Positions 5,378 to 63,624 of a DNA stretch of 64,000 nucleotides are shown here, piece by piece. Position 1 is the stretch's first letter. Every line of letters starts with the position of its first letter. The stretch is from positions 248,001 through 312,000 of the forward strand of contig NZ_QHHQ01000004.1 of assembly GCF_003258595.1 (NCBI RefSeq), given 5' to 3'. The translations under genes and the position numbers were made by a program. The notes beneath the pieces are model-generated. The model worked only from the letters and a program-made list of their open reading frames with translations. It was not told where the DNA came from and searched no databases. This stretch comes from Acuticoccus sediminis. GTDB taxonomy: Bacteria; Pseudomonadota; Alphaproteobacteria; Rhizobiales; Amorphaceae.

Positions 5378-5511
5378 CGGGACCTCGTGCGGCACGTACC
5401 AAAACGTCACCGCGATCGAAGGCCGTCCGGACCCCGCCGCCTGGCGAACGTCCGCACCGATCATCTCCCGTCGACACACCCCGTCCGACGATCCCGCGCG
5501 TGACCGCTATG

Positions 5512-5680
5512 CGACGGCAGGTCTCCTGGCTCGCGGGTCGTCCGTCTCGCGTCGCCTTCCCAGACCTGACCGGCCCAGTGGCATGTCGACGGAGACGTCA
5601 CCGCTCACAGTTGCGGGGGCAGCCGCAGAGTCCGGCCAAAGCCATCACTGCGTTCCCTTTTGATCCTCGGAAGGAACCGT
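5512..5680 (-). promoter_or_regulatory. Cobalamin (adenosylcobalamin-type) riboswitch
   Basis: Read on the minus strand, the stretch carries the cobalamin riboswitch landmarks in order: GGTTCC near 5678, AAAGGGAA near 5658, the B12 box GCTGCCCCCGCAACTGT near 5620, GCCACTG and GGGAAGGC in the middle, and the 3' closing element CAGGAGACCTGCC at about 5527-5515. It precedes btuB by about 134 bases, enough for an expression platform. Binding of cobalamin is expected to reduce expression of btuBFCD. Confidence 0.95.
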
Positions 5681-5797
5681 CGCGCGGAAGGTCACATACT
5701 TGATCCGGGGGCGCAACGATCTGAACGCGTTGCGCAACGGACGTGACACTTCGGCCACGTCCGCCATGGAGGACCGGGCGCCGCCCGGCCATTGCCG

Positions 5798-8976: not shown

Positions 8977-9921
8977 CTAGGACGCGTTGCCCGGCTCCTG
9001 CCCGCGCCCCGTCCGGCGTGGCAGGACGCGTCCGTCCCGGGCCATCCCCGCCGCGCCGTACTCGCGCGCGATCTCGATGAACGCGGCGACCTCCGGCCGC
9101 GCCCGGATGCGCTTGCGGAACACGAGGTGCTCGTGGAGGACGAGGCTCATCTCCGCCTGATGGATCGGCAGGTAGTGCAGCCGCGGGTCCGGCGGACACT
9201 CCGACATGGCAAATGCCGTCACGCCGATCTTGGCCGCCACCGCCTCGCGCAGCGCCTCGCGGTCGCCGATCTCGACGGTCTCGCGCGGACTGATGCCGAG
9301 CTGCGCCAGCGCCTGCTCCACGAGGCCGCGGGTGCGCGAGCTCGCCTCACGCATGAGCAGCACCTCGTCTTCCAGCACGCCGACGCCGACGTGGCGCATC
9401 CGCGTCAGCGGGTGGTCGCGCCAGACGCAGAGGGCAAGACCCTCGCTCTGAAGCGGCAGGCCGATGAAGTCGACGCCGAGGGTCGGCTCGACGGTGATGC
9501 CGACATCCGCCTCGCCATCCTCGAGGCGGGCCATGATGGTCGCCTTCGACGCGACGGTGATCGACACGGCGACATTTCGATGACGATCCCGGAAGCGCTT
9601 GAGGAGCCGGACCGAGAGCGGCGGCGAGTCGGAGACGACGCGCAGATGCCCGCCGTCGAGGCTCCCTTCGTTCGCGAGCGCGTCCTCCACGTCGGCGGCC
9701 GCGCGCATCATCCGCTCCACCGCGGCGAAGACCTGCGCGCCATCGGCAGTCAACACCAGACCGCGCCCGCGCCGCTCGAAGAGGCGCACGTCGGCTTCCG
9801 CCTCCAGCGCCTTCAGATGCTGCGAAATCGTGGGCTGCGAAACGTTCAGCATGTGCGCCGCGCGACCGACCCCGCCTTCCCGAAAGACGTAATAGAAGGC
9901 GCGGATCTGCGCGAAATTCAT
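8977..9921 (-). CDS. LysR-type regulator divergent from the giant exoprotein gene
   Basis: A 314-residue LysR regulator. The winged helix-turn-helix is at residues 1-60 (MNFAQIRAFYYVFREGGVG, then NVSQPTISQHLKALE), followed by a substrate-binding effector domain (about 90-295). It is transcribed away from the giant gene with 107 bases between the starts, the usual LysR layout, making that gene its most likely target. The effector is unknown. ATG 9921 is the only start that retains the complete helix-turn-helix. Confidence 0.9.
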   Translation of the reverse strand: MNFAQIRAFYYVFREGGVGRAAHMLNVSQPTISQHLKALEAEADVRLFERRGRGLVLTADGAQVFAAVERMMRAAADVEDALANEGSLDGGHLRVVSDSPPLSVRLLKRFRDRHRNVAVSITVASKATIMARLEDGEADVGITVEPTLGVDFIGLPLQSEGLALCVWRDHPLTRMRHVGVGVLEDEVLLMREASSRTRGLVEQALAQLGISPRETVEIGDREALREAVAAKIGVTAFAMSECPPDPRLHYLPIHQAEMSLVLHEHLVFRKRIRARPEVAAFIEIAREYGAAGMARDGRVLPRRTGRGQEPGNAS

Positions 9922-10028
9922 AGTCTCAGCCTATATGATGACGAAAGATAATCGATTTGTCCTAACAGCCAAAATGTCAATTGTCGCCTCCGTTAAGCAC
10001 CGCTCGGAAGAGCAGAAGGAGGCGTTTC
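9922..10028. promoter_or_regulatory. Shared promoter region, lysR and giant gene
   Basis: A 107-base divergent gap, AT-rich around 9930-9990 (TATATGATGACGAAAGATAA and nearby), where a LysR site and both promoters must lie. AGAAGGAGG at 10014-10022 is a near-perfect ribosome site seven bases before the giant gene's ATG, which fixes its start at 10029. I cannot assign exact -35/-10 boxes. Confidence 0.55.
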
Positions 10029-13000
10029 ATGGCGCGCGTGTACAATGGCGTCGTGCTGGGCACGACGAGCGAGCTCTCCGTCCCCGGCATCAACGGCGAC
10101 GTCGCCGACATCCTGAAGGCCGACGCCCTGCCGGCCGACCAGTCGCTGCGCATCCGCCCGTCAGAAGCGACGGTCAGCACCTGGGTCCTCGGCATCGACC
10201 TTTATGTCCCGGTGACGAGCGCGAGCTACATCGGCCTCGCCCAGGCGGGCGCGGACAGCGCGGACGGCGACCTCTTCCTGCACGACAACGGCGCCGGCGC
10301 GCTGGGTGTCGGGATCTCCGGCCAGTATGACGGCGCGGTCGAGTTCGATACGTGGACGCGCATCGTCGTCGCCGTCACCGAGGTGGACGGCGAGACGGTG
10401 CTGGAGAAGTACGTCGACGGCGAGCACGTCGGCACGCAGTCGATCGGCACCAGCGACCGCTTCGACATCTCCCCGGCTCTGGGGCTCACCCTCTTCACCG
10501 ACAACGACGGCGAGACCGCGCCGCTATCGGTCTCCGGCGTCTTCTTCTCCTCGGACCTGTCCGACCTCGACGCGCTGCTGGCGGCGGGTGCGACGGCGGA
10601 CGCGGAAGGCTTCCTGACCGGGGCCCCATCCGAAAGCGCCGTCGAGATCGACTTTGCCGGCGCCGACGTCGCGCCGCGCTACGGCGACGCGGCCGTCGAC
10701 CTCGAAGGGCTGACGGCCGAAGGCGAGCCGGTCGCGATCGGTGACAGCGTCATCGGCCTCGCCTCGGAGCTGGGCCTGCCGATGCCGGGCGGCGAGGACA
10801 CCGCGGTCCTCGCCTTCGACAGCTACACGCGCGGCGAGGGCCTGAAGGTCTCGGTGCCGGCCGACGCGGGCGATCTGACGAGCTACACGGCCGTCTGGGA
10901 CATCTACCTCGACGCCTCCTCGGACGAGGCGACGACGCTGCTGCGCGGCGGCAGCATCGGCCGCGCCAACGTCCTGGCCGACCTTGGCCAGGGGATCGGC
11001 GTCGACGGCCAGTACGACGGCACGATCGCCGCCGACACCTGGACGCGCATCGCGGTCTCGGTCGAGGACCGGGGCGACGGAACGTCGGTCCTGTCGAAGT
11101 ACATCGACGGCGTCCTCGTCGGGACGCAGACGGTCGACACCGGCGACTTCACGCTCGATACCGACGACGCGATCGTCCTCCTGGGCGACGAGCTGGGCCA
11201 GTCCGGCACCGGCGCCCTCGCCCACTTCGGCCTCTCCCCGCTGGTCCTGCCGGCGGCGGAGATCGCGACGCTCGGCACCGTGGACGCCGACGGGCCGTTC
11301 GAGGCCAGGCTCGACGGCGACGGCGAGCTGCCCACCAACGTCGTGCGCCTCGTGCCCGAGGTGTCCAGCAAGTCGGGCGCCTTCCACACCAGCGAGGCGG
11401 CCCAGACCGACGGTCTCACCTTCGACGCCTCGTTCCAGTTCCGCGCCACCAACGCGTCGGGCTACAGCGGCGACGGCTTCGCGTTCCGCATCGACGGCGC
11501 GGACAGCGTGGACGGCTACCTCGAGGGAAGCGGCGGCTCCATCGGCATCCCAAGCTCCAGCGACGCCCCGATCCCGACCGTTTCGGTGATCTTCGACTTC
11601 TACGCCAACGGCGGCGAGAGCGGCTCCAACGTCGTGCGCATCGCGGTCGGAACCGACTCCATCGACGACACGGTCGTCACCAGCGCGCGCCTGCCCTACG
11701 GCATGGACAACGGAGCCATCCACAGCGCGTGGGTCGAGTATGACGGCACCACGCTGTCGGTCTACCTCGCCGAGGCCGCGGACGCCGAAAAGCCGGTCGA
11801 GCCGATCATCAGCCAGGAGGTGGACCTCGCGGCGGTCGTCGGCGAGGAGGCCGTGTTCGGCTTCTCGGGTGCCACCGGCGCCAATTCGACCGCGATGGAC
11901 ATCGTCAATCTCGACATCGAGACCAGCGATCCGAACGGCCCATCCGGAGAGCTCCTCGAGACCGGCGCGGACAACATCGAGCTGATCGGCGATGCGGCAC
12001 AGATCGGCCCGGTCGAATTCGACGACGAAGCGCCGATGCAGGTCGGCTTCGACCGCGGCGACGCCACCGTCGAGTTCGGCTTCGCCGACGCCGACGTCGT
12101 CGACCGCGAGACGGTGCGCAACCCGATCGCCGACCTCCTGGTGACGCCGGACGCCGAGACCGTCGCCTACGACCTCACCGACGTCTTCGGCGAGGGCGCC
12201 CACGACTTCGCGGTGACCAACAGCAACGGCGACGTCGTCACGGCGACCATCGAGGACGGCGTCCTGTCGCTCGATTTCGGCGAGACGCTCGACCACTCCG
12301 ACCTCGTCGTCACCGCGATCACCGAGAACGGCACGGCGCTCACCGACAACGTGCGCGTGCGCGTCGCCGGCGAGAACGCCTACACCTTCGCGATCATCCC
12401 CGACACGCAGGACTATCCGACCACCGGCAAGGGCCAGCCGGAGACGATGGGCCACATGATGCAGTGGCTCGCGCAGAACGCGGACGGCAAGTCGATCGAG
12501 TTCGTCTCGAGCGTCGGCGACATCGTCAACAACAACACGGAGGCGGAGTGGCAGATCGCGCGCGACGCCTACGACATCCTGCGTGACGCCGGCATCTCCT
12601 TCTCCGTCGTCTCCGGCAACCACGACATCGGCAACAACGGCTCGTCGGACGTCCGCGACACGGACTACATGCGCGAGTACTTCTCCGTCGAGTACATGTC
12701 CGCCGACCCGACCTACGGCGGCAACTACGACCAGGACGCGACGTCGGCCGACAACAACTACCACCTCTACACCGCGCCCGACGGCACCGACTGGATCATC
12801 CTGAACCTCGAGTTCGGACCGCGCGACGACGTGCTGCGGTGGGCGGACGACGTCCTGACCGAGCACGCGGACCGCAACGCCATCGTCATCGAGCACGCCT
12901 CGAACAACTTCGACGGCCGCCTCGACGCGATCGGCGACGAAGTGGAGGCCGAGCCCGCCGGCTACGACTACGGTCTGCAGAACAGCGACGAGGGCGCCTG

Positions 13001-16000
13001 GGACGGCGAGACGCTGTGGCGCGACGTCGTCTCCCGTCACTCGAACGTGGTGTTCACCTTCGGCGGCCACGTCTTCGGCGACGGCGGTGAGACCACGATC
13101 GACCGGAACGCCTTCGGCTACGACGTCTACCAGATGCTGGTGAACTACCAGAACGGCGTCTCGACGGAGATCACCGGCGACGGCAGCGCGGAGGACGGGG
13201 CCAACGGCGGCAACGGCGCCATCCGCCTGGTGACGATCGATCCCGAGAACGACGCGATCTACACCGAGACCTACCTCACCGAGCTCGACACCTACCTCAC
13301 CGGCTCGCGCGAGACCGAGGAGATGAACCGCGACGGCCTCACCGGGTCGTACGTGGGCCACGAGGAGACCATCGAGGACGCGGGGATCGGCCAGCGCGAC
13401 GCGGAGACCGTCGCGAAGGCCGGCGACGACCAGATCGTGCGCGCCGCGGCGGGCGAGACGACCGCCGAGGTGACCCTTTCGGCCGCCTTCACCGTCGACC
13501 AGCAGGACGACATCAGCGCCTACGTCTGGACCGACGCGGACGGCAACGTCGTCGCCGAGGGTCCGGAGGCGACGGTCGCGCTCCGGGGCGGCGTCCACGA
13601 CATCACGCTGACGGTGGAGACCGCGCACGGTGTCTCCTCCACCGACACGACGCGCGTCATCGTCGAGACCGACGCGACGTACTTCAGCGACAACTTCAAC
13701 GACGGCGATGCCGAGGGCTGGTACGACCCGTCGGTCGGCGACCCGGGCAACCTCGCCACCTTCGGCACCGAGGCCGAACTCGGCCTGCCGGCGATCGAGG
13801 ACGGCACGGACGGCAGCATCGTCAGCATCGAGGCGCTCGCCTCCTCCCAGGCGATCAGGGTGTCGGCCGAGGGCGTCATCGGCGCCATCAACGAGTACAC
13901 GCTCGTCTACGACCTCTACGTCGCCGACGGCCAGGGCTCCTACACCTCGCTGTTCCAGACCGACCTCGCGAACAGCAGCGACGCCGAACTGTTCATCAGG
14001 AACAACGGCAACGGGACCGGCGGCGTCGGCATCTCCGCCGTCTACGAGGGCGCGTTCGAGTACGACGCCTGGAACCGCGTCGCGGTCACGCTGAGCGTCG
14101 TGAACGGCGAGCACGTGATGTCGAAGTACATCAACGGCGAGCTGGTCGGCACGCAGGTGGTCGACGGCGACGTCGCCGACGGATCGCGCTGGCAGTTCGA
14201 CGCCGAAGACGGCTTCTACATCCTCGCCGACAACGACGGCGAGACCTCCGACCTGTCGCTGAGCGCGTTCACCTTCATCGACGGCGCGGCGACGGCCGAC
14301 CAGATCGCCGCCCTCGGCGGCGTGGACGCGGACGGACCGGTCGACACGCTGGCCGGCTACAGCACGCAGTGGAGCTTCGACGGCTCGTTCGACAGCAGGG
14401 ACTTCGGCCCGGCAGAGCTGGAACTCGCCGACATCACGGCGCTCAGCACACCGTTCGACGTGAAGGGCTCGGCCAACTCCCGCAGGGACACGCCGGGGCT
14501 GGAAGGCGTCGAGGGCACGCTCTACGACCTCTCCGACACGCCGGACAACACGTTCATCCGCCAGGGCGAGATGATCGGCGACATGGTCCTCGAGGCGACA
14601 CTGCTGTCGCTGTCGGACGGGACCATGGGCGTCGTCTTCCGCTACGACGAGGCGAGCGGCGACCATTACCGCTTCGAGATGGACAGCGGCGAGAACGTCC
14701 GCCGCCTGGTCCGCGTCGAGGGCAGCGAGGAGACCGTCATCGCCGAGGAGACCGGCGGCTACGGGTTCTACGACGACATCGAGCTCAAGGTCGTCGCGGT
14801 CGACGGCGAGATCGGTGTGTCCCTCGACGGCGTGCAGCTCTTCGGCGGCCGCGTGACGGACGCCGCTCCGCTGGGTGCCGGAACGGTCGGCGTCTACTCC
14901 TCGGACAACGACGGCTCGCTGTTCGACGACATCACCGTGCGTGCCCCGACGGACGAGGCCGACACGGGCGCCGACATTCGCGTCGTCGACTTCGACGGCG
15001 ACGGGTTCGAGGCCGTCACGGTCGACGCGTCCATGTCGACCGGCGCCACACCGGTGATCGGCGCGGGAGCCGGGAGCGTCACCGGCGACCGCCTCGAAAC
15101 GCGGTTCGCCGCCGGCGAGACCACGGTCGAGGTGACGGTCGGCGAGACCGTCGACACGATGACGGTGGACGTCGTCACAGGGGACCGGATCATCGTCGCC
15201 GAGACCTTCGACGACGGCACGATGGACGGCTGGACGATCGTCGACACCACCGAGTTCGACGGCGAGGGCAACGCGGCGACGGGTTCGGCGGACTGGGCGG
15301 TCGTCGACGGCGCTCTCGTGGAGCAGGAGGGCTCCTACAGCCGGGAGCTGACCTGGAACGGCACGGCGAACGCCTCCGACGTCTGGGAGCGGGGCTGGTC
15401 GCCGCAGGGTGACGGCGTCTTCGCCCTCCACAAGGGCACCTACGCCCTCTACGACGGCGACACCCAGCTCGAGGACTACGCGATCGAGGCGGACATCACC
15501 GTCCCCACCGCCGAGGGCGGCGTCGGCTTCATGCTGAACTACGTGGACGCGGACAACTACTACAAGCTCGAGATCGACGCCCACGCCAACCTCACGACGC
15601 TGGTCGAGGTGGTCGACGGCTACGAGAGCTTCGTCGGCCGCGTGCGCACCACCTACACGCCGGGGGAGACCTTCCACCTCTCCGCCGAGAGCGTCGACGG
15701 GGCGATGCAGGTCACCGTCGACGGTCACGAGATCTTCGCCTACGACCTCGAGGCGCGGTACGCCGAAGCGGGCTCGGCGGGCGTCTACGCCTGGGGGGCG
15801 GCGGGCGCGACGTTCGACAACGTGGCGATCATCGACCTCTCGGAGCAGGAGGCGGACGCGATCGTCGTCGACACCCTGCGCGACCGCGTGGCCGACGACG
15901 GGCTCACCTCGCTGCGCGAGGCGATCCTGCTCGCCAACGAGAGCGACGGCGCCGACACGATCGTCTTCGACGAGGCGCTGGCCGGCGGCACCATGTCGCT

Positions 16001-17087
16001 GCGCGGCGGCGTCCTCGGCATCACCGACGACGTGACAATCGACGGCGCGGACGTCACCATCGACGCCAACCGCACCGGCCGCATTTTCGAGATCGGCGAC
16101 GGGACCAGCGTGGAACTCTCAGACCTCACCCTCGAGGACGGGCGGATCGTCATGCGGCCGGTCTCGGACGCTGACGGGGGCTCCATCCTCGCCGGCGACG
16201 ACGTCGCGCTGACGCTCGAGGGCGTCGAGATGACGGGCAGCACCGCCTACTCGGACGGCGGCGCGATCGCGATGGGCGACAACGCGGTGATCACGATCGT
16301 CGGCGGCGAGTACACCGACAATCGCGGCATCGGCCATGGCGGCGTCATCGTGGCTGGAGACGGCGCGACCCTCTCGGTGGAGGGCGCGGTGTTCGACGGC
16401 AACACGTCGAGCGGCGACGGCGGTGTCTTCGCGCTCGGCGACGATGCGGTGGTGAGGTTCGTCGACATCGAGGCGACGGCCAACATCGCCTGGGGCGAAG
16501 GGGGCGTGGTGTCGGCGGGCGACGGCGCCAGCCTCACCGTCGAAGGGGGCGAGTTCGCGCGCAACAAGGCGATCTCCAACGGCGGCGTGTTCGCCTTCGG
16601 CGACGGCCTCGACGCGAGCCTCTCCGACGCGGACTTCACCTGGAACCGGGCGATCGCCGGCCAGCGTGACGGCGGTGTCCTCTACGTCGCGGGCGGCGAG
16701 GCGGACATCGACGCCTCCGGCCTCTACGCGGTGCGCAACAGCGCGGGCGACAACGGCGGCGTCTTCGCCATCGGCGAGACGGAAGGCGCGGTGCTCGACC
16801 TCTCGGTCACCGGCAGCACGCTCCAGCGCAATTCCGCCGGCGACAGCGGTGGCGTCGTGTTCGGCGGCGACGACCCCATGATCGTTCTGGCGGAGAGCGA
16901 CGTGCGCCGCAACGTGGCCGAAAACGACGGCGGCGTGATCGCGATCGGCGACGACGGGACGGTGACGCTGGAGGACGACGTCCTGCGCCTCAACGATGCG
17001 GGCGACGAGGGACCGGTGCTCTTCCACGGCGACGATGTCACCCTCATCGGCAGCATCTCCCAGTGGGGCGACTTCGCGATCCTCTGA
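10029..17087 (+). CDS. Giant cysteine-free secreted protein: lectin-like modules, metallophosphoesterase, repeat solenoid
   Basis: A 2,352-residue, strongly acidic protein with no cysteine that I can find and no N-terminal signal peptide, as in type I secreted proteins. Domains in order: two related laminin-G-like modules (about 1-200, 238-424; shared cores GVGISGQYDG and KYVDG-VGTQ); an L-type lectin-like domain (435-634); a calcineurin-like metallophosphoesterase (785-1090) with D792-T-Q, G830-D831, G863-N-H-D866, H956 and G1012-G-H1014; a PKD-like domain (1130-1215); a third module copy (1218-1441); two further concanavalin-like domains (1476-1641, 1723-1937); a CSLREA-like TSLREAILLAN (about 1958); and eleven 27-residue repeats (2049-2345). 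It ends in a short hydrophobic tail (WGDFAIL). The start follows AGAAGGAGG. The likely role is extracellular carbohydrate or phosphoester binding and hydrolysis; the substrate is unknown. Confidence 0.88.
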   Translation: MARVYNGVVLGTTSELSVPGINGDVADILKADALPADQSLRIRPSEATVSTWVLGIDLYVPVTSASYIGLAQAGADSADGDLFLHDNGAGALGVGISGQYDGAVEFDTWTRIVVAVTEVDGETVLEKYVDGEHVGTQSIGTSDRFDISPALGLTLFTDNDGETAPLSVSGVFFSSDLSDLDALLAAGATADAEGFLTGAPSESAVEIDFAGADVAPRYGDAAVDLEGLTAEGEPVAIGDSVIGLASELGLPMPGGEDTAVLAFDSYTRGEGLKVSVPADAGDLTSYTAVWDIYLDASSDEATTLLRGGSIGRANVLADLGQGIGVDGQYDGTIAADTWTRIAVSVEDRGDGTSVLSKYIDGVLVGTQTVDTGDFTLDTDDAIVLLGDELGQSGTGALAHFGLSPLVLPAAEIATLGTVDADGPFEARLDGDGELPTNVVRLVPEVSSKSGAFHTSEAAQTDGLTFDASFQFRATNASGYSGDGFAFRIDGADSVDGYLEGSGGSIGIPSSSDAPIPTVSVIFDFYANGGESGSNVVRIAVGTDSIDDTVVTSARLPYGMDNGAIHSAWVEYDGTTLSVYLAEAADAEKPVEPIISQEVDLAAVVGEEAVFGFSGATGANSTAMDIVNLDIETSDPNGPSGELLETGADNIELIGDAAQIGPVEFDDEAPMQVGFDRGDATVEFGFADADVVDRETVRNPIADLLVTPDAETVAYDLTDVFGEGAHDFAVTNSNGDVVTATIEDGVLSLDFGETLDHSDLVVTAITENGTALTDNVRVRVAGENAYTFAIIPDTQDYPTTGKGQPETMGHMMQWLAQNADGKSIEFVSSVGDIVNNNTEAEWQIARDAYDILRDAGISFSVVSGNHDIGNNGSSDVRDTDYMREYFSVEYMSADPTYGGNYDQDATSADNNYHLYTAPDGTDWIILNLEFGPRDDVLRWADDVLTEHADRNAIVIEHASNNFDGRLDAIGDEVEAEPAGYDYGLQNSDEGAWDGETLWRDVVSRHSNVVFTFGGHVFGDGGETTIDRNAFGYDVYQMLVNYQNGVSTEITGDGSAEDGANGGNGAIRLVTIDPENDAIYTETYLTELDTYLTGSRETEEMNRDGLTGSYVGHEETIEDAGIGQRDAETVAKAGDDQIVRAAAGETTAEVTLSAAFTVDQQDDISAYVWTDADGNVVAEGPEATVALRGGVHDITLTVETAHGVSSTDTTRVIVETDATYFSDNFNDGDAEGWYDPSVGDPGNLATFGTEAELGLPAIEDGTDGSIVSIEALASSQAIRVSAEGVIGAINEYTLVYDLYVADGQGSYTSLFQTDLANSSDAELFIRNNGNGTGGVGISAVYEGAFEYDAWNRVAVTLSVVNGEHVMSKYINGELVGTQVVDGDVADGSRWQFDAEDGFYILADNDGETSDLSLSAFTFIDGAATADQIAALGGVDADGPVDTLAGYSTQWSFDGSFDSRDFGPAELELADITALSTPFDVKGSANSRRDTPGLEGVEGTLYDLSDTPDNTFIRQGEMIGDMVLEATLLSLSDGTMGVVFRYDEASGDHYRFEMDSGENVRRLVRVEGSEETVIAEETGGYGFYDDIELKVVAVDGEIGVSLDGVQLFGGRVTDAAPLGAGTVGVYSSDNDGSLFDDITVRAPTDEADTGADIRVVDFDGDGFEAVTVDASMSTGATPVIGAGAGSVTGDRLETRFAAGETTVEVTVGETVDTMTVDVVTGDRIIVAETFDDGTMDGWTIVDTTEFDGEGNAATGSADWAVVDGALVEQEGSYSRELTWNGTANASDVWERGWSPQGDGVFALHKGTYALYDGDTQLEDYAIEADITVPTAEGGVGFMLNYVDADNYYKLEIDAHANLTTLVEVVDGYESFVGRVRTTYTPGETFHLSAESVDGAMQVTVDGHEIFAYDLEARYAEAGSAGVYAWGAAGATFDNVAIIDLSEQEADAIVVDTLRDRVADDGLTSLREAILLANESDGADTIVFDEALAGGTMSLRGGVLGITDDVTIDGADVTIDANRTGRIFEIGDGTSVELSDLTLEDGRIVMRPVSDADGGSILAGDDVALTLEGVEMTGSTAYSDGGAIAMGDNAVITIVGGEYTDNRGIGHGGVIVAGDGATLSVEGAVFDGNTSSGDGGVFALGDDAVVRFVDIEATANIAWGEGGVVSAGDGASLTVEGGEFARNKAISNGGVFAFGDGLDASLSDADFTWNRAIAGQRDGGVLYVAGGEADIDASGLYAVRNSAGDNGGVFAIGETEGAVLDLSVTGSTLQRNSAGDSGGVVFGGDDPMIVLAESDVRRNVAENDGGVIAIGDDGTVTLEDDVLRLNDAGDEGPVLFHGDDVTLIGSISQWGDFAIL
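16173..17060 (+). repeat. Eleven 27-residue solenoid repeats in the giant protein
   Basis: Residues 2049-2345 form about eleven units of 27 residues, each opening DGG-V/A-hydrophobic-A-hydrophobic-GD and closing near a conserved Asn (for example DGGAIAMGDNAVITI and HGGVIVAGDGATLSV). The even spacing and alternating hydrophobic pattern fit a parallel beta-helix, as in adhesins and polymorphic membrane proteins. One unit (about 2165-2195) is a few residues longer. Confidence 0.85.
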
Positions 17088-59192: not shown

Positions 59193-59282
59193 TGGCGGAG
59201 AGAGAGGGATTCGAACCCTCGGTACGGTTACCCGTACAACGGTTTTCGAGACCGCCCCGTTCAACCACTCCGGCACCTCTCC
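59193..59282 (-). tRNA. tRNA-Ser, anticodon CGA
   Basis: Read on the minus strand, 59282 to 59193 folds as a 90-base serine tRNA: acceptor GGAGAGG/TCTCTCC, discriminator G, encoded CCA, an anticodon loop CTCGAAA giving CGA, a long variable arm (GTACGGGTAACCGTAC) typical of tRNA-Ser, and the T arm GAGGGTTCGAATCCCTC. It decodes UCG codons, which are frequent in this genome. Confidence 0.96.
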
Positions 59283-60664: not shown

Positions 60665-60810
60665 GGCCCCGGGCCGCCGCCCTGCGGAGCGGCGGCGGCT
60701 TCCCCCGTCCGGCACCACGCCGGCGGCCTGTCGATCCTGGTGACGCCCGGACCGCCGCGACGGCGACGGCTTGACGAGCGCCCTCCCCCGGGAGCAGGCT
60801 TGAGGCCTTC

Positions 60811-63624
<2,814 letters not shown>

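Follow-up and report, generated by a model that had tools for sequence, protein, structure and literature searches.

The window, by which we mean the whole stretch of 64,000 nucleotides of Acuticoccus sediminis DNA that was analysed, contains a large open reading frame whose product (244.8 kDa, pI 4.05) starts at the same point as its homologs. The initial annotation had described this product as a cysteine-free protein of 2,352 residues, and this was borne out, with 0 Cys over the entire length; an N-terminal hydrophobic leader was not seen by eye, and a comparison with PHROGs gave no match. A divergent LysR gene and a putative operator lie upstream, and all features of the locus are listed in Table 1. 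On the opposite strand of the main gene, an antisense frame of 1,734 residues is present (10524-15728, minus strand), which is probably a shadow frame of GC-rich coding DNA, the window having 70% GC. Elsewhere in the window, a cobalamin riboswitch (5499-5696, minus strand, 132 bits), a TPP riboswitch (60804-60933, plus strand, 64.1 bits) and a tRNA-Ser with the anticodon CGA (59193-59282, minus strand) were found.

Table 1. Features of the locus in window coordinates; residue numbers of the main protein are given in brackets.
Feature	Position	Strand	Basis
Divergent LysR, phn_lysR-like, conserved partner of the family	8977..9921	-	
Conserved element in divergent promoter, CCTA ... ATTTGnnCnA, putative LysR operator	9930..9964	.	
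Shine-Dalgarno-like AAGGAGG	10016..10022	+	sequence; precedes ATG at 10029
Main ORF, 2,352 aa, no cysteine, no signal peptide	10029..17087	+	
LamG-like module a (1-200)	10029..10628	+	module relatedness, segment Pfam search
LamG-like module b (205-425)	10641..11303	+	PF13385 3e-11 on 1-425
L-type (legume-like) lectin domain (430-665)	11316..12023	+	PF00139 3.2e-18; PDB lectins 1.1e-6
Ig/cadherin-like (CAD) domain (668-780)	12030..12368	+	fold class inferred
Metallophosphoesterase (MPE) domain (781-1110): D792, Q794, D831, N864, H865, H956, H1014, F1016	12369..13358	+	
PKD domain (1120-1212)	13386..13664	+	PKD_4 match; family profile
LamG-like module c (1215-1450)	13671..14378	+	relatedness to modules a/b
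Jelly-roll-like domain 1, JR1 (1451-1652)	14379..14984	+	related to JR2 at 1.9e-10
Second PKD/Ig-like linker (1650-1715)	14976..15173	+	PKD match here in relatives
Jelly-roll-like domain 2, JR2 (1716-1936), PF06439 / levanase-module-like	15174..15836	+	Pfam, family profile
CSLREA-like motif (1945-1970)	15861..15938	+	TIGR04214 18.1 bits
27-residue-period repeats (2050-2327), GGxxxxGD / xxxN pattern, predicted beta-solenoid	16176..17009	+	periodicity; fold inferred
Type-I-like C-terminal tail (last 26 residues, ends WGDFAIL)	17007..17084	+	

Distribution and modular composition of the family

The window's genome was compared with seven further genomes of the genus, and the full-length protein was found in two of these eight, the window's own and genome G004. 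The G004 ortholog likewise has 2,352 residues and no cysteine and is 68% identical to the window protein, with 85-93% identity in stretches of the MPE domain (961-1080) and 33-52% in stretches of the lectin domain. Six genomes of a class sample of 385, including the window's own, gave a match at E 1e-5, and a scan of genome contigs with the MPE alignment yielded 64 loci, 61 of which are alphaproteobacterial, with six genomes represented twice judging by their titles. The loci L123, L124 and L125, which are not alphaproteobacterial, were excluded from all counts based on 61 loci; counts based on 53 leave out L117, the frame of which is broken, and seven loci cut at the 3' end, and counts based on 50 further leave out three loci cut at the 5' end. 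Since the loci are related by descent, such counts are not independent of each other. The family proteins are 1,562-2,502 residues long, and no paper on the family appeared in searches of open-licence papers.

The three laminin-G-like (LamG) modules, for which a common relationship had been claimed, are indeed mutually related (BLASTP E 2.8e-18, 2.0e-29 and 8.6e-22), and the PF13385 match obtained with residues 1-425 searched alone lies above the cut-off of that model. The proposed L-type lectin-like domain was also recovered, as the whole protein matches the legume lectin family PF00139 above its cut-off; among the 66 family sequences (window, G004 and the 64 loci), this domain is present in the window, G004 and L066 only. 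The PKD-like domain is weak in Pfam, where the whole protein matches PKD_4 at 9.1e-5 and thus below the cut-off, and is well supported by its family profile, which matches the PKD chains of collagenases at 3.3e-8. Two further jelly-roll-like domains had been suggested, of which JR2 matches PF06439 (4.6e-5 with the whole protein, 7.1e-8 with the segment alone) and, as a family profile, the carbohydrate-module chains of levanases (6.6e-8); JR1 alone belongs to no meaningful Pfam family and was assigned through its relatedness to JR2. The Ig/cadherin-like domain gave no Pfam match above the cut-off. A comparison of the domain order across genomes, as proposed in the initial annotation, revealed a CAD-MPE core, the Ig/cadherin-like domain immediately preceding the MPE domain in 61 of 61 alphaproteobacterial loci. 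A PKD domain follows closely in 56 of 61 loci and both jelly rolls are present in 60 of 61, the exception being the frame-broken L117, while a LamG-like module ahead of the core occurs in 33 of 61.

The metallophosphoesterase domain and its metal site

Searched alone, the MPE segment of the window protein has no Pfam match at E up to 10; PF00149 is matched by five of six aligned homologs. Its membership in the superfamily is therefore based on the family profile, which matches the six canonical MPEs of the window's genome in hhalign with a probability of 96.7% (E 3.7e-10), as compared with 0.04% for an unrelated profile used as negative control, and in which the D, GD, GNHD and GH blocks are in register with those of the canonical enzymes. 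The protein carries the signature of the metallo-dependent phosphatase superfamily, DX[H/X], GD, GNH[D/E], H and GHX[H/X], as printed in an excerpt of PMC4334965. The initial annotation had described a complete calcineurin-like phosphoesterase with D792, D831, H865, H956 and H1014. These five residues are in place; completeness does not apply, as the protein has DTQ in place of the DxH and GHVF in place of the GHxH that define a canonical dinuclear PF00149 enzyme and occur in each of the six canonical MPEs encoded in the window's genome. That genome also has a second DTQ-type MPE (L012 985-3159, G000:C1:359542-360339), with 724 residues, no cysteine and, by eye, no LamG modules.

The altered site is conserved. 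All 66 sequences share D792, Q794, D831, N864 and H865, so that DxQ is universal in the set, and H956 and H1014 are kept in 65, the exception again being L117, whereas position 1016 is occupied by Phe in 59 of 66 and by His in none. DTQ without the second histidine was also found in four distant records, from Haladaptatus, Sphingomonas, Streptomyces and Sphingobium. Taken with the pattern of the 66 sequences, these records indicate that the change to DxQ/GHxF belongs to an MPE subfamily and not to the window protein alone. A precedent for the first replacement exists in an active family, as Gln27 of human ADPRibase-Mn coordinates metal 1 in a docking model described in the excerpt of PMC4334965; a described example in which the partner in GHxH is lost together with that in DxH was not found in a non-exhaustive search. 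In the PDB, sequence searches based on the MPE profiles gave only weak MPE matches, the best at 0.032 and 0.033.

As both metal-1 ligands are replaced, the activity of the domain could be low or absent. The protein might then be exported as an adhesin or matrix component that uses a degenerate MPE fold for binding, and the loss of both histidines (Q794, F1016), the fact that Pfam no longer recognises the domain and the predominance of lectin-like modules in the chain would all agree with this. We nevertheless consider such a non-enzyme unlikely, because the remaining metal-site residues are nearly invariant across the 66 sequences, because relatives from archaea, actinobacteria, sphingomonads and planctomycetes retain the signature residues as well, and because DxQ is found in the active human enzyme named above. 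An active phosphoesterase, with its metal site modified at the metal-1 position, is the reading that we regard as probable for this domain.

C-terminal repeats and probable export route

The CSLREA-like motif reported in the initial annotation was found and, at 18.1 bits, scores below the TIGR04214 cut-off of 25. The eleven 27-residue repeats proposed to follow it were slightly idealised: the period of 27 is correct (mean BLOSUM score of 0.59, as opposed to a best value of -0.20 among 500 shuffles), and the domain is made up of ten units of 27-31 residues and a partial eleventh. No convincing Pfam or PDB match was obtained for these repeats, which are predicted from their periodicity to form a right-handed beta-solenoid. 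RTX nonapeptide repeats were searched for with PF00353 and not matched at E up to 1, so that the window protein is not classed as an RTX protein, and the case for its export rests on its tail and on its relatives.

Among these relatives, 39 of 53 proteins with a visible end show at least three RTX-like matches, counted with a regular expression, in their last 40%. A strict DF tail ends 29 of 53 family proteins, and the window tail also fits this pattern, compared with 16 of 613 neighbour ORFs, a control set of mechanical predictions that includes other type I proteins. When tails were scored with a home-made score against the small set of six CSLREA-protein tails of the genus, the window tail reached 22.0, a value attained by three of the 613 control ORFs (mean -0.4, s.d. 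5.4), and 48 of 53 family tails exceeded the 95th percentile of this background. Cysteine is absent from 39 of 50 complete family proteins, while the neighbour ORFs contain a mean of 8.5 Cys per 1,000 residues; in eight of the 11 proteins with cysteine, it is confined to the first 50 residues, which perhaps are over-extended starts. In L076 and L103, both from Pseudochelatococcus lubricantis, the last 230 residues are identical and the DF tail is missing.

PrtD homologs, counted at 200 bits or more with lower matches dropped, occur at 23 of 61 loci, and at 12 of 61 PrtD lies directly downstream of the family gene on the same strand, within about 240 bp. At the remaining 38 loci, some with short flanks, PrtD was not found at this threshold. 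The window's genome of 7.76 Mb has two PrtD above the cut-off, a density that predicts a PrtD in about 0.5% of 20-kb stretches. On an annotated plasmid of Rhizobium daejeonense, genes for HlyD, a type I permease/ATPase, a LysR and the family protein stand in a row. The initial annotation had noted no linked ABC/HlyD export genes apart from a YiaV-like adaptor 5 kb away, and the lack of a linked exporter in the window was confirmed. The YiaV-like gene was tried as a linked exporter component and rejected, with 34.2 bits against the HlyD model as opposed to a cut-off of 208.65. A genome search for type I and TolC genes, as suggested there, revealed PrtD/HlyD pairs at C1:482843-485962 and C3:140838-143851, both unlinked to the window gene, the latter adjoined by TolC at C3:139140-140372. 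ABC exporter, adaptor and TolC are thus all encoded in the genome, which also contains 183 RTX-repeat matches.

The RTX and DF tails, the lack of cysteine and the nearby PrtD in relatives support type I export well, though indirectly, and together with the exporter genes of the own genome they make type I export, one of the leaderless routes suggested in the initial annotation, likely for the window protein. An autotransporter, two-partner secretion, Tat or a cytoplasmic location would be suggested by the absence of a linked exporter from the window and by the PMP-like repeats, which are known from autotransporters. Such alternatives appear very improbable, as neither a hydrophobic leader at the N-terminus nor a C-terminal barrel region after the repeats is seen, and the relatives adjoin PrtD/HlyD and end in RTX and DF tails.

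The CSLREA-repeat module is present only in the window and G004 among the 66 sequences, seven of which are cut before the tail. In an MPE tree of 63 rows, both cluster with the RTX-bearing protein of Pseudorhizobium pelagicum (L066), which has a long branch, in a clade with a support of 100/100 nested in a clade of 13 rows, the branching order inside the trio being weakly supported (89/61). Because most relatives, inside this clade and beyond it, have C-termini of the RTX or an RTX-like kind, the most economical interpretation would be that RTX was replaced by the CSLREA-repeat module in the window genus and the type-I-like tail was kept. Several relatives, e.g., L119 and L107, lack the repeat module and show few RTX matches, which suggests that the tail region is exchangeable more widely. 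The C-terminus of L107, from Pseudoroseomonas, consists of other tandem repeats (FDAxFYLxxNxDVAxAG...), neither RTX nor a solenoid of the window type. That the 27-residue solenoid took over the role of RTX, a folding block driven by calcium, in export and folding within one genus, on a phosphoesterase with a changed metal-1 site (DxQ, GHxF), is a more specific proposal, which we put forward tentatively.

A related question is whether the protein is released. After type I export it might be retained at the cell surface, with the repeat domain as an anchor for the enzyme and not merely as a substitute for a folding aid; solenoid repeats and lectins suit attachment, and the repeat domain is specific to the genus among the 66 sequences. 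We consider this rather doubtful, as relatives without the repeat domain are RTX exoproteins and an unsystematic inspection gave no known anchor motif.

Stand-alone proteins with the motif also occur in the genus: six CSLREA-motif ORFs were found at same-genus loci, five of them without cysteine and four with DF tails. In the stand-alone proteins L030, L031, L032, L033 and L023, no cysteine follows the motif, and four of these five end in DF plus hydrophobic residues. On a single Xanthobacteraceae contig, giant RTX proteins (L104 2545-7731 and 14872-17226; L114 1417-9120 and 14934-19787) agree almost completely at their C-termini, as would be expected of a tail that is exchanged as a cassette.

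Divergent LysR, possible phosphorus use and relation to known systems

A LysR related to that of the window was found at 33 of 61 loci, i.e., 32 clustered loci and L066, which was added by hand (64% over 158 residues); the LysR of L129, 7 kb upstream with 32% identity, was left out. At 26 of the 53 assessable loci, the related LysR is divergent and within 1 kb, while for G004 none was found in the flanking DNA examined. With 95 LysR matches in the 7.76 Mb of the own genome, chance adjacency should be rare, though the loci share descent. The best NCBIfam model for the window LysR is TIGR03339 phn_lysR, with 226 bits as opposed to a cut-off of 341.1 and to 135.9 bits for the next model, and the window LysR is the best phn_lysR match of the 95; the model is matched by 22 of 22 aligned LysR members of the family, as are many other LysR models. 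In the promoter, seven of 27 loci scanned have CCTA and ATTTGnnCnA at constant distances from the start of LysR (offsets 8 and 33), and ATTTG is kept in nine of nine chosen close loci in an alignment; outside the close clade, the element was absent from the scanned loci.

The affinity of the LysR to phn_lysR is a hint to phosphorus use. Six proteins were chosen for a domain scan and five have domains that point in this direction: giant RTX-type neighbours carry GDPD at L104 and Exo_endo_phos plus 5'-nucleotidase at L088, L114 and L115, with L104 and L114 on one contig, and G325 has a neighbour of the 5'-nucleotidase type. The distant Haladaptatus relative adjoins phoX and ppk1. The neighbours within the window, as far as examined, do not point to phosphorus, and a convincing Pho box was not found in the upstream regions (mean best match of 9.37 as opposed to 8.62 of 14 in shuffles, and a match of 13 in one of 59 regions only). 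For organophosphate degraders, a lead given by relatives on Sphingobium plasmids, no literature link to the MPE family was found. A role in phosphorus scavenging is thus conceivable and somewhat short of probable.

Taken together, the product of the gene is likely to be a phosphoesterase that acts outside the cell and reaches it in a single step through a type I secretion system. The divergent LysR, which is linked to the gene, would control it via the conserved promoter element, and the leaderless, cysteine-free and very acidic chain would be recognised at its uncleaved C-terminal tail. It would pass unfolded through PrtD-HlyD-TolC encoded elsewhere in the genome and fold outside the cell, probably with calcium. 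There, the lectin, LamG and jelly-roll modules may hold polysaccharide or cell debris and the MPE domain may hydrolyse phosphoester, most likely phosphodiester, bonds for phosphorus uptake, so that the combination of polysaccharide binding and phosphoester cleavage suggested in the initial annotation is plausible. The RTX block that is usual in the family would be swapped in the window genus for the CSLREA-type repeat domain with a type-I-like tail.

Three observations go beyond the initial annotation: the large family, the divergent LysR as a conserved partner and the repeat domain where relatives have RTX. They connect the giant proteins of a family widespread in alphaproteobacteria with type I export, with a phn_lysR-like regulator and, as a likely role, with the extracellular use of organic phosphorus. 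For enzymology, the DxQ/GHxF metal site, which several phyla share, offers a defined target. If the exchange of RTX for a solenoid is true, it would show RTX to be a module that can be replaced, and one could test which features other than the tail have to stand in for RTX so that a 245-kDa chain is exported and folds. RTX phosphoesterases have been predicted before, with putative RTX nucleases, nucleotidases, phosphodiesterases and phosphatases named in a review (PMC3034196); what deserves testing here is the replacement of RTX by a solenoid and the DxQ/GHxF site.

With regard to known systems, the family shares DxQ with the ADPRibase-Mn-like variant of the PF00149 superfamily (excerpt of PMC4334965) and differs from the superfamily by GHxF instead of GHxH, and the solved MPE structures are not close to it in sequence. 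The aminoethylphosphonate-associated LysR model TIGR03339 (phn_lysR) is the best model for the window LysR, yet the match lies below its cut-off. Like RTX exoenzymes exported by type I systems, which are leaderless, Cys-poor and large and have an uncleaved C-terminal signal, the window protein is large and without leader or cysteine and has a tail that may act as such a signal, and its relatives have RTX and adjacent PrtD/HlyD, whereas the window protein and G004 have a CSLREA-type repeat domain in place of an RTX block. In this respect they resemble the CSLREA-domain proteins (TIGR04214), in which a CSLREA-like motif is also followed by long repeats; however, the CSLREA proteins of the genus stand alone, whereas the module of the window protein is fused behind a phosphoesterase core.
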